DNA from: Halorussus limi
GTDB lineage: Archaea; Halobacteriota; Halobacteria; Halobacteriales; Haladaptataceae
Assembly (NCBI RefSeq): GCF_023238205.1
Contig: NZ_CP096659.1
Span: 1,178,001 to 1,242,000, forward strand
Direction of reading: 5' to 3'
Length of the DNA: 64,000 nucleotides
Shown here piece after piece: positions 12,070 to 18,003 of the stretch. The notes beneath the pieces were generated by a model that made no database searches, was not told where the DNA came from, and was given only the letters and a program-made list of their open reading frames with translations. A program made the translations under genes and the position numbers. The first letter of the stretch is position 1, and every line of letters begins with the position of its first letter.

Positions 12070-12930
12070 CTAGTTGCTGCGGCGGATCGCGAGCAGCGCG
12101 GCCGCGACGAGCGCGACGAGAGCCGCAGTGGTTCCGAAACCGGGGGCACCGGTTCCGCTACCGCCGGTGGTCGTCTCGTCGTCGGAGTTCGACGACTGCG
12201 TCGTATCATCACCGGAACCGTCCTTCGTGGCCGTCTCGGTGTCGTTGCTGATCGCTTTCTCCGTCACCGTGTCGTCGGCCGAGTCGCTTCCGTCGTTCGA
12301 ACTCTGGTCGTCGGAAGCGGTCGTCTCGGTCGTGGTCGTCGTGGTGTCGGCGCTGCCGCCGGTGTTGCCGCCACCGGCGCTACCGCCGCCACCACCGCCA
12401 CCACCGCCGCCACCGCCACCACCGCCGCCGCCGGTGTTACCGCCGCCACCGCCGGTCGACGACGTCGTCGTGGCCGTGGTCGCCGTGGTCGTGGTGGTAC
12501 CGGACGGAGTCGACGTGCTGGTGGTAGTCGACGTCGGCGTGGTCGTTGTCGTCGTGGACAGTTCGCCGACTGTGAAGTCGTTCTTCGTGTTTTCGCCGGA
12601 CTCCCACGTCTCTTGGGCGCTCGCGTTGCCGTTCGCGACGCGGATGGTCAACTGCTCGTCCGATTCACCGTCGTCCGGGTCCGCCACGTCGACGCCGTAC
12701 TCCCCGTTGGAATCCGTCGTCGTCTGGTTGATGACTTCGCCGTTGTAGACGACTTCGACCGTGACGCCCTCGACCGGGTCGCCGTTCTGGTCGCTCACGG
12801 TCCCGCGGAAGTGGTGGGGCGGAGCAGGTTGTCCCGCAGCAACGCCTGCGACGCTCGCAACCAGCATCGCCGCGAACACCGCCGCAGCTAGCTGCACGAA
12901 CCGCTTCTTGAGTAGTGCATTTTCTGTCAT
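12070..12930 (-). CDS. PGF-CTERM surface protein with Thr-rich and poly-Gly stalk
   Basis: 286 residues from ATG 12930 (a GTG 15 bp upstream is less likely). Order: Sec signal peptide (about 7-33), a carboxypeptidase-regulatory-like beta-sandwich (about 38-125; FRGTVSDQNGDPVEGVTV), a Thr/Ser-rich stretch suited to O-glycosylation, an uninterrupted run of 17 Gly inside a Gly/Asn-rich segment, a second Thr/Ser/Asp linker, and the tripartite C-terminus GAPGFGTTAALVALVAAALL-AIRRSN. The PGF motif plus hydrophobic helix plus basic tail is the PGF-CTERM signal processed by archaeosortase A and replaced by a lipid. It starts 44 bp after the surface glycoprotein gene, so the two are probably one operon; a role as a wall-spanning anchor is inferred. 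Confidence 0.85.
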   Translation of the reverse strand: MTENALLKKRFVQLAAAVFAAMLVASVAGVAAGQPAPPHHFRGTVSDQNGDPVEGVTVEVVYNGEVINQTTTDSNGEYGVDVADPDDGESDEQLTIRVANGNASAQETWESGENTKNDFTVGELSTTTTTTPTSTTTSTSTPSGTTTTTATTATTTSSTGGGGGNTGGGGGGGGGGGGGGGGGSAGGGNTGGSADTTTTTTETTASDDQSSNDGSDSADDTVTEKAISNDTETATKDGSGDDTTQSSNSDDETTTGGSGTGAPGFGTTAALVALVAAALLAIRRSN

Positions 12931-12974
12931 TGTATGAGTGATCACCTATAAATTGGAAAGTGGATGCTGCGGCT

Positions 12975-15900
12975 TCAGGTCGCGTAGGCGGTCTCGCCGT
13001 AGACGTCGCCGTCGTCTTCGGTCACGAGGACCCAGTACCCTTCGCCGGGTTCGAGGTTCTCGCTACTGGAGACGTCGGAGAAGCTCAGGCGACCGTTCTC
13101 CGTCTGCTGGTAGACGGTGGTGAAGTCGCCGGCTTCGATGGCCGAGAAGGCGACGTCGCGGTTCTGAGAGCCTTCCTGCCAGTGACCGACCAGGTTCCAG
13201 CCCTCGTGGACGTCTTCCGACCCGGGCGTCGCGGACTCCAGGCTTCCGGAGCTACCGGGCTGGTTGTAGACGTTCATGTCGAGGGTGGCGCTGTGGTTCA
13301 TCACGAAGATATACCCTTGGCCGCCTTCCAGCGTTTCCAGCGTGCTCGTGTTGTCACCGGGCGTGTAGTGGCTCCATCCGTCCTCGTCGTACGCCCAGAC
13401 GGTGTCGTTCTCCGTCAGCGCATCGATCTCGGATAGGTCGACCGCACCGCTCGCCGCGGGTAGGGAGACCACGTTGTGGCCCTCTTTCAGGTTCAGTTCG
13501 ATGGTGTGAACCGTGGTGGTGTCCGAGGCGTTGGTGGCATTCGCGGAGTCACCAACGTAGTTATCCTCGACGAAGGCACCGTCGGAGACGTTCAGTGCGG
13601 GCGAGTCGCCCGTCTGGAAGTTGTCGCCGAAGGTGACCTTGACGAAGCCCTTGGTAGCAGCGCTGTCTGCGGTGACGCTACTGGCCTGCACGCGAGCGTC
13701 GCCGACGTTGATGAGCTCCGAACTACCGAGGTCGTCGACGACGGGCTCGTTGAACTCGACGCGGACCGTCGTGCTCGAATCGCCCGCATCGATGATTTGC
13801 GCGTCGGTGACGTGCGGGTCTTCGCCGTCGGTGCTGAACGTGCTGGTCTCGTCGCTATTGAGGAGTTTCTGGTCGTTCTCCCCAACGGCGGAGATCAGCG
13901 TGGCCTTGTAAGCACCGTCGCGGTCGTCGACGGTCGCCGTGTAGGTGACGACGCCGGTCGTGGCGTTGTAGTCACGGCTGAAGTCGTCCAGCGTGAGCGT
14001 CTTCGTCACGGAGCTACCGAAGTAGCTGTCGGTGCTGTTGACGCCGACGGTGAGACTACTCAGGTTCGAGTTGGTCTCGAACGTAACCTGCGCCGTTCCG
14101 GCGTCGCTACCGTTCAGGCCTTCGGCCTCGAACGTGCGCACGTCGAGGTTGTTGACGGTAACGTTGACCGTCTTCGAGACCTTGTTGTTAGCGTCGTCGG
14201 TGACGTTCACGCGGAACGTGAGCGTCCCGTCTTCGAGCTGGGTCGTGTCGAGTTCGTCCGTCTCCGCGTCGAAGACATTCGTACTCGTACTGAGGTCGAT
14301 GGTCGTGAACGAATCGTTGTTCGAACCGTTGTACTCGTAGGTGACTGCGTTCCCGTCAGTGTGCGAGACAGTGAACGCCTCGGAGACGTTCACGTCGCCG
14401 TAGACGAGTTCACCTTCCGAGAGGGTGCTCGAGACCGACGGGTCGTAGTTGTCGAGGAGGACGGTACCGCTGGCGGTGTCGCTGTTGTCGGCGTCGTCAG
14501 TGACGGTGACCTTCAGCTTGATGTTGCCGTCCTCGAACTGCGTCGTGTCGAAGCTCTCCGGCGAGGAGACGGTCTGGTAGTCCTCGGCCGGGAAGCCGCC
14601 GCTCGCGTTCGTGTTGTACTCGTAGGTGACGGTCTGGTTCTCACCGCTGATGTCGAACTGCTCGGTGAGGTCGAGCGTTTCGTTGAGCGTACTCTCACTG
14701 AAGTTCGCCTTCGCGCTCGGGACCTGCGTGTCGTACAGGAACGTCCCGTTGTTCACGCTCGTGTTAATCGACTTTCCAGCCTTGTCCTTGGCGTTGCTGA
14801 CTTCGACTTCCGCAGTAGCGTCGGCCGACTTCGTCGGGAGGGTAATCTTACCCTTCCACGTTGTGTTGGCCGGGCCGAAGCCGTTCGTCCCGAAGGTTCC
14901 ATTATTGTTGACGGTGGCGTCGGTCACACCGTCACCGTTGACGTCGACCGTAACCGACGGATTAACGGTCTGGTCCATCGGTTCGCTGAACTTGACCGTA
15001 ACGTTGCGCTCGACGCCAACGTTGCTGGCGTTCACCGGCGTGTCGTCGACGGTCACGCTCGTGACCCGCGGCTGCATCGAGTCGACGGTGTAGGTGAACG
15101 CCGACGAGTTGAGGTTGTCCACGGAGTCCGCGGAGGTCACGACGTACGTAACGTCGCCCTGCGGAAGCGCCGGAACGCCCTTCTGCGACGAGTCGACGGT
15201 CAGCGTGCGGCCGTCGAACTCGACGCCCGTGGTGCTGTCGGTCGCGCTGTCGAGCAGGACGTTGCCGTCAGCGTCCTTGACGGTGACTTCGACGGTGTTC
15301 GGGTTGACCGCCGAGTACGTGTCCGTGATGTCGAAGGTCAGCGTCGGCTCGTCGGTGGTGAGGTACGAGTTGTTAGCCGTACCGGGACTCACCTTCGGGC
15401 CAGACGCGTCGACCTTGAACGTCCGACTCGTCTGGCTGTAGTTACCGTTCGAGTCGGACGCGAACACCTTCACGGTGACCTCTCCGTCCGGAAGCGCGGA
15501 CACACCGTCGCTACCGGGGTAGACGGACAGCGTCTGGCCGTTGAAGTACACGCCGGCGTCGTTGGGCGTGTTGGCCGAGACCAGACCGCCGCTTGCGTTG
15601 TAGATTCCGACCTCGATGCTGTCCGGGTTGATGCCCTGCGAGTCGTCGATGTCGACTGCGATCTTGTGTTCGTCGTCCGCGATCTTCTCGCCGGAAGCCA
15701 AGTTCCAGTTGCTGTATGCCGGACTGCTGCCGACACTGACCGAGTCGGACTTGGGGCCAGCCCAACTGTTCCCGAAGGTATCAGTGGCGCTGGTCACCGT
15801 GGCCGTGTGAGTCCCTTCGAAGGCCTTCTGCGTGTACGTGTAGACGTACGAACCGCCGTTCGAAGCACTCTGGGCGAAGTCCGAACGAGTCAGACTCTGG

Positions 15901-16841
15901 TTCTTGGCCGTCTCGTTGTTGTACTCCACGGCGATGGCACCGTCAGAGGAACCTAGCTGCTCCGAGGCGTTGATGGTAATCTTGGCCATTCCGTCCTCGT
16001 GAGTGACGGTGAACTTGTTAATGGACGGTGCCGTCGCGTCCTTCGTGACCGTGGTGTTGGCGGTGAGACCGTCGGCGTTCCCGTTCCCGGCGGCATCGGT
16101 CATCTTCGCCGAGATTTCCACCGTGCCATCGTCGAAGCTCGAGGCGGCAATACCGGACACCGACACCTCTTGCTCTTGAGAGTCATCGTCCGACAGGCCC
16201 GAGATATCCTTCGACGCCGTTTCGGTCGTCGAACCGTTCTTTAGCTGAACGGTCAGGGTGCCGTCCTCGGGGTCGTCGGTCAGGTTGACCGTGACCGAGT
16301 AACCGGTCTCGTTACTCGACACGATAGGCCCACCAACAATCGAGACGGGGTCGTCGGGAGCGGTGTAGTCGGCCGTGACGGTGGCGCTATCTTCTGCGCC
16401 CATACCGTCGAGGTCGACGGTCACGCTCGCCGAGTTGCCGTCAGCGACGCTGAGCTTGTCCTTGGTATCGTCACTGGAGCCACTCACGAGAGTGAACGAA
16501 CCCCAGTAGTTGCCGTCGCCCGCTCCACCGGTGGACGAGCCATCAGCGCCACTTCCGTCGTCAGCGAGAGTAACGGTGATGGAACCACCGTTACCATTCG
16601 AGACGGTAACTTTCTGAGTGCCACCAGTCGTTGCACCGTCTGTGGCTTTGATGTAGACTGTTTCGCCGTCCTGTGCTACCGAAATCTGGTTCCCACCCAC
16701 GCTGTCGTGGATGGTAACCGTGTCTGTGTTGGCCGCGACGGCACTCCCGGTGAACGCGATGGACCCTCCGAAGACGGAGAGGACCATCAGCGCAGCGAGG
16801 AATACCGCGCGCGCCTTGTCGCGTGCTTCGTTCCGATTCAT
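12975..16841 (-). CDS. Surface (S-layer-type) glycoprotein, Ig-like repeats
   Basis: 1288 residues from ATG 16841. The N-terminus (ARDKARAVFLAALMVLSVFG, ending near GSAVAA) is the characteristic halobacterial surface-glycoprotein signal peptide. The mature protein is very acidic, rich in Asp, Thr, Ser and Asn, with many N-glycosylation sequons. It consists of tandem Ig/cadherin-like beta-sandwich modules with recurring phrases (ALPDGEVTVKVFASDSNGN, LEDGTLTFRVNVTDDANN). Two related C-terminal modules (about 1110-1195 and 1205-1288) each contain a hydrophobic start (EGHNVVSLP, EGWNLVGHW) and a G-x-G-Y end. There is no C-terminal membrane helix and no PGF-CTERM, unlike classical S-layer glycoproteins. 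The frame is open upstream to 17162, but that part has no signal peptide. Probably the major or an accessory S-layer protein. Confidence 0.85.
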   Translation of the reverse strand: MNRNEARDKARAVFLAALMVLSVFGGSIAFTGSAVAANTDTVTIHDSVGGNQISVAQDGETVYIKATDGATTGGTQKVTVSNGNGGSITVTLADDGSGADGSSTGGAGDGNYWGSFTLVSGSSDDTKDKLSVADGNSASVTVDLDGMGAEDSATVTADYTAPDDPVSIVGGPIVSSNETGYSVTVNLTDDPEDGTLTVQLKNGSTTETASKDISGLSDDDSQEQEVSVSGIAASSFDDGTVEISAKMTDAAGNGNADGLTANTTVTKDATAPSINKFTVTHEDGMAKITINASEQLGSSDGAIAVEYNNETAKNQSLTRSDFAQSASNGGSYVYTYTQKAFEGTHTATVTSATDTFGNSWAGPKSDSVSVGSSPAYSNWNLASGEKIADDEHKIAVDIDDSQGINPDSIEVGIYNASGGLVSANTPNDAGVYFNGQTLSVYPGSDGVSALPDGEVTVKVFASDSNGNYSQTSRTFKVDASGPKVSPGTANNSYLTTDEPTLTFDITDTYSAVNPNTVEVTVKDADGNVLLDSATDSTTGVEFDGRTLTVDSSQKGVPALPQGDVTYVVTSADSVDNLNSSAFTYTVDSMQPRVTSVTVDDTPVNASNVGVERNVTVKFSEPMDQTVNPSVTVDVNGDGVTDATVNNNGTFGTNGFGPANTTWKGKITLPTKSADATAEVEVSNAKDKAGKSINTSVNNGTFLYDTQVPSAKANFSESTLNETLDLTEQFDISGENQTVTYEYNTNASGGFPAEDYQTVSSPESFDTTQFEDGNIKLKVTVTDDADNSDTASGTVLLDNYDPSVSSTLSEGELVYGDVNVSEAFTVSHTDGNAVTYEYNGSNNDSFTTIDLSTSTNVFDAETDELDTTQLEDGTLTFRVNVTDDANNKVSKTVNVTVNNLDVRTFEAEGLNGSDAGTAQVTFETNSNLSSLTVGVNSTDSYFGSSVTKTLTLDDFSRDYNATTGVVTYTATVDDRDGAYKATLISAVGENDQKLLNSDETSTFSTDGEDPHVTDAQIIDAGDSSTTVRVEFNEPVVDDLGSSELINVGDARVQASSVTADSAATKGFVKVTFGDNFQTGDSPALNVSDGAFVEDNYVGDSANATNASDTTTVHTIELNLKEGHNVVSLPAASGAVDLSEIDALTENDTVWAYDEDGWSHYTPGDNTSTLETLEGGQGYIFVMNHSATLDMNVYNQPGSSGSLESATPGSEDVHEGWNLVGHWQEGSQNRDVAFSAIEAGDFTTVYQQTENGRLSFSDVSSSENLEPGEGYWVLVTEDDGDVYGETAYAT

Positions 16842-16860
16842 GGTTGATTTGATTCTTCCA

Positions 16861-16927
16861 ATGCGGGGGTAGCCACCCACCCGACCATCGGCCGCGTTAA
16901 GGTCGGCGTGGTACCTACCTCCCGCAT
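16861..16927 (-). ncRNA. Long hairpin in the 5' UTR of the surface glycoprotein mRNA
   Basis: ATGCGGGGGTAG (16861-16872) pairs with CTACCTCCCGCAT (16915-16927) with one bulged base. Inside it CCAC (16873-16876) pairs with GTGG (16908-16911), and CCGACC (16881-16886) with GGTCGG (16901-16906). The hairpin lies 19 bp before the start codon and its 5' end coincides with the expected transcription start. A stabilising or translation-controlling leader is likely; it is a cis-element, not an independent RNA. Confidence 0.6.
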
Positions 16928-16950
16928 CTACTGTCGGTATATATCGTGGA

Positions 16951-16960
16951 CATATAAAAT
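16951..16960 (-). promoter_or_regulatory. TATA box of the surface glycoprotein gene
   Basis: On the minus strand the sequence reads ATTTTATATG, a strong archaeal TATA-box match. Counting about 25 bp downstream puts the start of transcription near 16927, exactly where the leader hairpin begins. A second AT-rich motif, GATATATACC (16938-16947 region), is an alternative. Confidence 0.6.
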
Positions 16961-17278
16961 GTTTATGCAAACAGAAATTCCTTGACATGGACCAGTTAAG
17001 ATACAGGTAATCGCCGGAAGGAGTGGTATAATCGGGGCATATCACCCGCGGTTCGTGTCTATCGGCCGACGCTCCGAGAGGCGATACTGCCTCGCACCGC
17101 GTGTCGTGAACGTGCCCGCGCGAGTCCACTACTACGCGAGTTTTTAGACCGCTGAGGACCACCGAGAAGTTTCTGATAGCGGTTCAGAAATGGTCATAAG
17201 CCGCTTCTAGAGACGGTATAACAATATTTAGATGTCTAACAGTCACCTGCGAGTCACTAACGACCGCATCGAGGAGAC

Positions 17279-17569
17279 TCACTCGGTCCGAATGCTCCGC
17301 TCGACGACCGCGTCGAAGTCCACGTCCGAATCACCGTACGAATCCCGGTGGTCGAGCACCGCACGCCCGCGGTCGGTAATCTCGTAAAGGCCGCTGTTCT
17401 CGGCCGGGCCGACGCGTTTGACGAGTTCGAGTTCGGCTAGATGAGGCAGACGAGTGTTCACGTAACTTCGGTCCTTGTCCAACAGGAGTGAAATGTTCTG
17501 GGCCGTGTTCCGGCCGTGCTCTTCGAGCGCTTCGAGTATCTCGAAGTCCGTCGGTTCGGCGAGTTTCAT
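17279..17569 (-). CDS. PhiH1-repressor-like winged-helix regulator (copy 1)
   Basis: 96 residues. The MarR/PadR-like winged helix has the haloarchaeal phage-phiH1-repressor pattern: TDFEILEALEEHGRNTAQNI, then a recognition helix around DRSYVNTRLPHLAELELV, then a wing GPAENSGLYEITDRGRAVL. Small DNA-binding dimer expected. It is paralogous to the gene at 17701-18003 (same length and motif spacing, VNTRLP and GLY-ITxxGRAVL shared). Both lie upstream of the surface glycoprotein operon and on the same strand, so control of surface proteins is an attractive guess. The promoter has repeated AACAGTA elements flanking the TATA box. Confidence 0.8.
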   Translation of the reverse strand: MKLAEPTDFEILEALEEHGRNTAQNISLLLDKDRSYVNTRLPHLAELELVKRVGPAENSGLYEITDRGRAVLDHRDSYGDSDVDFDAVVERSIRTE

Positions 17570-17700: not shown

Positions 17701-18003
17701 TTACTCGGCGTCGGACCGCGACTCGAGCGTTTCTTCGACGGCGGCGTCGAAATCCACGTCCTCCTCTCGGTACTTCGAGCGGTTTTCGAGAACGGCCCTG
17801 CCCTTCTCGGTGATGGCGTAGAGACCGCTGTTCGGGGCGGGGCCCACACGTTCGACGAGCCCGTAGTCCGCCAGAATCGGCAGTCGCGTGTTCACGTACG
17901 CACGGTTCTTGTCGAGTTCGTGAGCGAGGTTGACCGCGTTGTTCCGTTTTCCGTCAGAGAGGGCCTTCAGAATATCGAAGTCCGTCGGGGTAGTGAGCTT
18001 CAT
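17701..18003 (-). CDS. PhiH1-repressor-like winged-helix regulator (copy 2)
   Basis: 100 residues with the same winged-helix architecture as its neighbour: TDFDILKALSDGKRNNAVNL, recognition segment NRAYVNTRLPILADYGLVER, wing APNSGLYAITEKGRAVL. The C-terminal acidic tail is slightly longer. It has its own TATA-like GTTTATAAACC (minus strand, about 18027-18037), so the two paralogs need not be co-transcribed. The pair looks like a local duplication. Targets are unknown. Confidence 0.8.
   Translation of the reverse strand: MKLTTPTDFDILKALSDGKRNNAVNLAHELDKNRAYVNTRLPILADYGLVERVGPAPNSGLYAITEKGRAVLENRSKYREEDVDFDAAVEETLESRSDAE

Follow-up and report, generated by a model that had tools for sequence, protein, structure and literature searches.

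In this study, the leader of a surface protein gene in the window (the 64,000-nt stretch of Halorussus limi DNA analysed here) was found to be nearly one long hairpin, with the start codon of a 29-codon upstream ORF in its foot and the stop codon of that ORF on the start of the surface gene. From this architecture, which is read from the sequence, we infer a transcript that starts at the hairpin foot and is translated from there. Ribosomes that leave the leaderless upstream ORF would then probably, though far from certainly, pass to the surface gene through termination-reinitiation, with the fold gating their entry. The features are as follows.

12975..16841, minus strand: surface protein gene, 1288 aa, ATG at 16841; TIGR04207 signal peptide, no PGF-CTERM match
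16838..16841, minus strand: ATGA stop/start overlap of upstream ORF and surface gene, from the sequence
16838..16927, minus strand: 29-codon upstream ORF MREVGTTPTLTRPMVGWVATPALEESNQP, TGA stop included; arrangement shared by five of the six leaders of its class
16860..16928, minus strand: predicted 5'-terminal leader hairpin; MFE -43.0, z -4.21, 0/300 shuffles; terminal arm duplex p 0.002
16860..16872, minus strand: 3' arm of the terminal helix, from fold and duplex test
16915..16928, minus strand: 5' arm of the terminal helix, including the upstream-ORF ATG, from fold and duplex test
16936..16943, minus strand: further conserved promoter element, TATATACC, spanning roughly -16 to -9
16951..16958, minus strand: TATA-like box TTTATATG, whose first T precedes the upstream-ORF ATG (A16927) by 31 nt

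Leader hairpin and upstream ORF

Because the surface gene lies on the minus strand with its ATG at 16841, its RNA corresponds to the reverse complement of the sequence first quoted. Folded together with the ATG, the leader from 16928 to 16842 on that strand reached -43.0 kcal/mol (z -4.21), and none of 300 dinucleotide shuffles was equally stable. With more flank the values were -43.9 and z -3.12 (1 of 200 shuffles as stable), and the plus strand gave -40.6 and z -2.62 (4 of 200). The nest consists of a helix of 8 bp (16928-16921), a helix of 5 bp (16919-16915) and a bulged stem of 6+6 bp closed by a 14-nt loop, and its 3' arm ends at 16860. The first-pass annotation had described the leader as nearly one long hairpin of three nested helices over 16861-16927; the description was confirmed on the minus strand, and its limits were correct within one base (16928-16860).

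The hairpin sequence is single copy in the 4.6-Mb genome. Covariance models of Rfam 15 gave no match to a known RNA family or riboswitch around the window leader, and a single irrelevant weak match in 8 related loci. A reading as an intrinsic terminator or attenuator was rejected, since no minus-strand terminator-like site was found in 12700-17300.

The ATG of the upstream ORF (hereafter minigene) begins at 16927, base 2 of the hairpin, where the transcript is predicted to start. The ORF fills the leader of about 87 nt and overlaps the main start in the ATGA at 16841-16838, a short same-strand stop/start overlap of the kind that termination-reinitiation uses. Judged by this arrangement, the window leader is probably translated. 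The minigene peptides of the six leaders described below appeared unrelated by eye, and this is not the picture of an attenuator leader peptide.

Promoter and predicted transcript start

A TTTA was present at -29 to -32 from the upstream start codon in all 6 promoters of the window's class. Fixed between the TATA box and the start, TATATACC is the best-conserved promoter element of the class; its TATACC lies at -14 from the upstream start codon in 5 promoters and at -12 in the sixth. It is likely to be the melting region and less likely an alternative TATA box, in which case the transcript would start approximately 12 nt inside the hairpin. That the TATA position places the start at the first base of the hairpin stands as a prediction, the spacing being alike (29-32 nt) in the five related promoters. 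Transcription would thus start at the hairpin foot, on ATG 16927 or about one base away from it, and a start at 16927 would make the minigene transcript leaderless by the 0-5 nt definition applied to Hfx. volcanii (PMC4983044). This leaderless status is predicted from TATA spacing, which is similar in all 6 class members.

Related leaders of the same promoter class

Outside its own genome, the leader DNA was found in none of the 17 genomes of the genus searched, and 58 relatives gave one short 30-nt match; related leaders were therefore sought via the protein and its signal peptide. The survey of TIGR04207 gave matches in 26 of 28 genomes of the family and in 134 of 145 of the order, and promoter-pattern searches covered 293 to 392 genomes. 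Among the TIGR04207 matches listed, 157 upstream regions were read (57 loci and 100 extracted regions); listed places left out include G097:C28, G158:C52:51185, G140:C7, G064:C60 and G090:C2. L149, L158 and L176 had no usable ATG, and L099 was a duplicate of L093.

Six leaders formed the class of the window: the window leader itself, L034 and L022 (both G009, same genus), L093 (G144), L166 (G063) and L189 (G103). The last three come from another family, so that the class spans five genomes and two families. No seventh member was recognised with looser promoter patterns in 392 genomes of the order; these patterns matched 14 and 13 genomes, and the rest were judged by eye, from the printed letters, to be chance. 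Among the 26 genomes of the family to which G144 belongs, the promoter pattern gave 2 matches and missed the known G103 member because of its gap limit.

The class leaders could hardly be aligned, and each had a different hairpin in the same place. In the order window leader, L034, L022, L093, L166 and L189, overall fold z was -4.21, -3.15, -0.98, -4.47, -4.28 and -4.58, the fold of L022 being weak. Pairing of the first 14 nt with the downstream leader exceeded that in shuffled leaders with p values of 0.002, 0.019, 0.037, 0.013, 0.010 and 0.002 in the same order (Fisher combined 7e-8). The terminal helix lay above the best fold by 2.0 kcal/mol in L034 and 1.0 kcal/mol in L022. The two arms change together (GATGCGGG/CCCGCATT, ATGTGCC/GGCACAT, GTGGCCC/GGGTCAC, GCGAATG/CATTCGC, TATGTGGACGCC/GGCGTCTGCAT and ATATGC.CTCGG/CCGAG.GCATAT), and the minigene start codon falls wholly or partly within the terminal helix in each leader. 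Compensatory change in homologous leaders, which the first-pass annotation had named as a check, was therefore borne out in all six. By eye, no conserved loop or sequence motif was seen inside the six hairpins.

Every class leader had an RTG, placed 1-3 nt away from the predicted start of the transcript (5 ATG and, in L022, 1 GTG). The stop of the frame so opened overlaps the surface ATG as ATGA in five leaders (29, 22, 27, 29 and 32 codons); L034 has 25 codons and an 8-nt overlap, its stop lying 5 nt inside the surface gene. The first stops of the other two frames fell within -25 to +5 in 0 and 1 of the 6 leaders; both this interval and the 14-nt arm used above were picked after inspecting the sequences. 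Since the six leaders differ in length (67 to 98 nt), the frame match with the surface start is not due to a fixed length. The ATGA by itself is no evidence, as it is near-universal at surface-gene starts (152/156) whether an upstream ORF is present or not, and shuffled leaders of the five ATGA members, with length and frame kept, reached the overlap in 28-50% of trials.

Main class of S-layer leaders

A CCCCTACCC-like block was matched in 113 of the 157 upstream regions; one match (L187) was spurious, a product of chance, leaving 112 main-class leaders. The window leader has no such block at its transcript start and does not belong to this class. The common haloarchaeal S-layer leader begins GTACCCCTACCC (L061 and L094 in the genome of the window, and 112 upstream regions) and carries a covarying stem. 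The loci tested gave no relevant match in Rfam, and this leader appears to be an RNA element not yet described.

An ATG just after the block was present in 75 of the 112 leaders. In 60 of these its frame stopped between -25 and +2 relative to the S-layer start, against 6 and 18 for the other frames; weighted by genus, the counts were 15.5 of 22 against 2.0 and 5.6, a weighting that lessens, without removing, the inflation of raw counts by common descent. As the other 37 leaders lack that ATG, the minigene is not essential in the main class; in these leaders GTG was not in excess as a substitute start (5, 6 and 2 among the 21 with a GTG; 16 had neither). Substitutions in the main-class minigenes numbered 268, 346 and 322 at codon positions 1, 2 and 3 (90 pairs), giving no sign of coding selection on the peptides; without a third-position excess, it is the extent of the frame that is kept, not the peptide.

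The main-class ATG lies at the foot of the stem GGTGGCAG/CTGTCGCC, in which base pairs have been replaced on both sides. Pairing holds in 81% of the cells of this stem and in 30-58% when one side is shifted by 1-4 columns, a comparison that favours the stem because the structure was predicted on the same alignment. When the test applied to the window leader was used on 110 of the 112 leaders (two longer than 140 nt were left out), evidence for a strong long hairpin was weak: duplex p was below 0.05 in 17 of 74 and 7 of 36 leaders, against 8 of 110 for the control stretch, and the overall fold had a mean z of -1.1.

GGAGG or GAGGT within 22 nt before the start was found in none of the 118 leaders that make up the two classes and in 8 of the 38 other leaders (Fisher p 7e-6). 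The surface-protein genes outside both classes that carry a Shine-Dalgarno-like GGAGG are L131, L137, L140, L143, L167, L186, L078 and L090.

Surface gene and its protein

In the NCBIfam scan, the window protein matched only the haloarchaeal surface-glycoprotein signal peptide (TIGR04207); neither BGTF nor PGF-CTERM gave a match, and the protein was not assigned to the HVO_2072 type of S-layer glycoprotein. Two further surface-glycoprotein genes of the same genome (L061 and L094b) both have the leader common to most haloarchaeal S-layer genes. The paralogue scanned (L094:2919-4979) contains the BGTF and PGF-CTERM domains and is matched by HVO_2072 S-layer models at scores below their cut-offs; it resembles the HVO_2072 S-layer family. 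The suggestion that the message of the window gene is very abundant consequently found no support, given two other surface-glycoprotein genes with the common leader, one of them resembling that family.

As read from the extracted stretches, the surface proteins behind the six class leaders are large (1288-2079 aa). A C-terminal region is common to five of them; the sixth (G144), over the part extracted, is similar to the others only at the N-terminus and in short internal stretches.

On the minus strand at 17279-17569 and 17701-18003, immediately upstream of the surface gene, a tandem pair of genes encodes small winged-helix proteins that are alike in size and sequence start; they are possible regulators. 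An 826-codon open frame runs antisense within the surface gene (13476-15956, plus strand) and is probably an artefact of GC composition.

Proposed mechanism and alternatives

We propose that the leader acts as a hairpin-gated ribosome loader. Transcription would begin at the hairpin foot, near ATG 16927, where ribosomes would initiate as on leaderless haloarchaeal mRNA. They would translate the 29-codon minigene, whose peptide would be irrelevant, opening the hairpin en route, terminate at the TGA (16840-16838) and immediately reinitiate on the overlapping ATG of the surface gene. As the closed hairpin pairs the minigene ATG, the fold could limit ribosome entry. It buries the start of the minigene and not that of the surface gene; it could thus gate loading, and a ribosome on the minigene would have to open it. 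Of the two roles suggested earlier for the hairpin, protection of the message from decay and gating of translation, gating is the better option, though in a form that the first-pass annotation did not foresee: the leader is probably not just an untranslated one, as an upstream ORF runs from the predicted 5' end to the surface start. The hairpin may also protect the message from decay.

A plain untranslated hairpin that shields the mRNA 5' end from decay, with de novo initiation on the surface gene and an incidental upstream ORF, is an unlikely explanation, yet the strongest rival. It would account for the compensatory change that conserves the hairpin in six leaders and is in keeping with the lack of a coding pattern in main-class peptides; moreover, 37 of the 112 main-class leaders have neither the ATG nor a Shine-Dalgarno-like motif, and on such leaders de novo initiation presumably occurs. 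What it leaves unexplained is why the frame opened by a 5' RTG ends on the surface start in all six leaders when no two of them are equally long (67-98 nt), and the main-class count of 60 of 75 frames, compared with 6 and 18.

Less likely still is a haloarchaeal 5' stem-loop translational regulator, acting through a 5'-/3'-UTR interaction or a trans factor, with the minigene playing a minor part. Stem loops in haloarchaeal 5'-UTRs are reported to be needed, together with 3'-UTRs, for translational regulation (PMC2636863); the six hairpins, however, share no loop or motif recognisable by eye, and Rfam gave no relevant match. It is very improbable that the inverted repeat acts in the DNA, as a regulator, recombination or inversion site, leaving the RNA fold a by-product: the winged-helix genes at 17279-17569 and 17701-18003 would suit a regulator site, but the sequence is single copy in the genome and different in every relative. 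Pairing that is kept with bulges and G-U pairs despite sequence change suits RNA better than a site for a protein or recombinase.

We suggest only tentatively, and with more doubt than confidence, that the loading proposed for the window leader is a general device of haloarchaeal S-layer and related surface genes, one that has persisted while its sequence was completely replaced. In such a device a 5'-terminal hairpin would lock the start codon of a leaderless minigene, and ribosomes reaching the minigene stop would be passed to the main start. If so, surface proteins would be supplied with ribosomes at a tunable rate by way of leaderless initiation, possibly accessible only to ribosomes that load during RNA synthesis, and many S-layer "5'-UTRs" would be translated. 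The arrangement bears on how haloarchaea initiate translation on leadered mRNAs without a Shine-Dalgarno sequence: a single leader in surface-protein genes seems to combine leaderless initiation with coupling, and simple outcomes are predicted for mutants. Coupling and leaderless starts are already known. In the open-access literature searched, older subscription papers on S-layers being outside this scope, no description was found of a leaderless minigene that is locked by a hairpin and feeds a surface gene. A leader of about 111 nt has reportedly been described for an S-layer gene of either H. halobium or Hfx. volcanii.

Comparison with known systems

Leaderless transcripts make up 72% of the protein-coding transcripts of Hfx. 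volcanii (PMC4983044), and passages of a review treat leaderless initiation and coupling as separate routes (PMC7531240). Among overlapping gene pairs of Hfx. volcanii (nine) and E. coli (five), 13 of 14 were strictly coupled (PMC6728339), and the ATGA of the window therefore fits termination-reinitiation. Reinitiation in Hfx. volcanii falls to about 40-60% with gaps of 13-14 nt and is abolished with gaps of 22-23 nt (PMC10666635). The termination-reinitiation (TeRe) pairs of Haloferax volcanii (PMC6728339, PMC10666635) resemble the window in having an ATGA overlap on one transcript and a second gene that needs no de novo initiation. Unlike in these pairs, the upstream partner in the window's class is a minigene of 22-32 codons without a conserved peptide, and in the window it starts at the predicted mRNA 5' end inside a hairpin.

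Small ORFs in haloarchaeal leaders are also known from Hfx. volcanii, in which 16 uORFs of 15-31 aa were counted among 97 transcripts with UTRs of 150-250 nt (PMC4983044). The window leader differs from these in being shorter (about 87 nt), in being filled by its ORF and in the overlap of that ORF with the main start. Like the window leader, the main-class S-layer leader (GTACCCCTACCCATGGTGGCAG...) has an ATG close to its 5' end, where a covarying stem has its foot, and an ORF that ends at the S-layer start; it differs in its conserved sequence block, a predicted transcript start approximately 12 nt before the ATG, a weaker overall fold and a stop that often precedes the S-layer ATG by 4-25 nt. 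In upstream-translation-dependent initiation (UTNI, PMC6728339) a hairpin is opened by upstream translation, and our proposal is similar in that such translation would melt a structure. In the window, unlike in UTNI, 18 nt separate the end of the 3' arm from the surface start, and it is the start of the minigene, rather than the downstream start, that would be buried in the fold.
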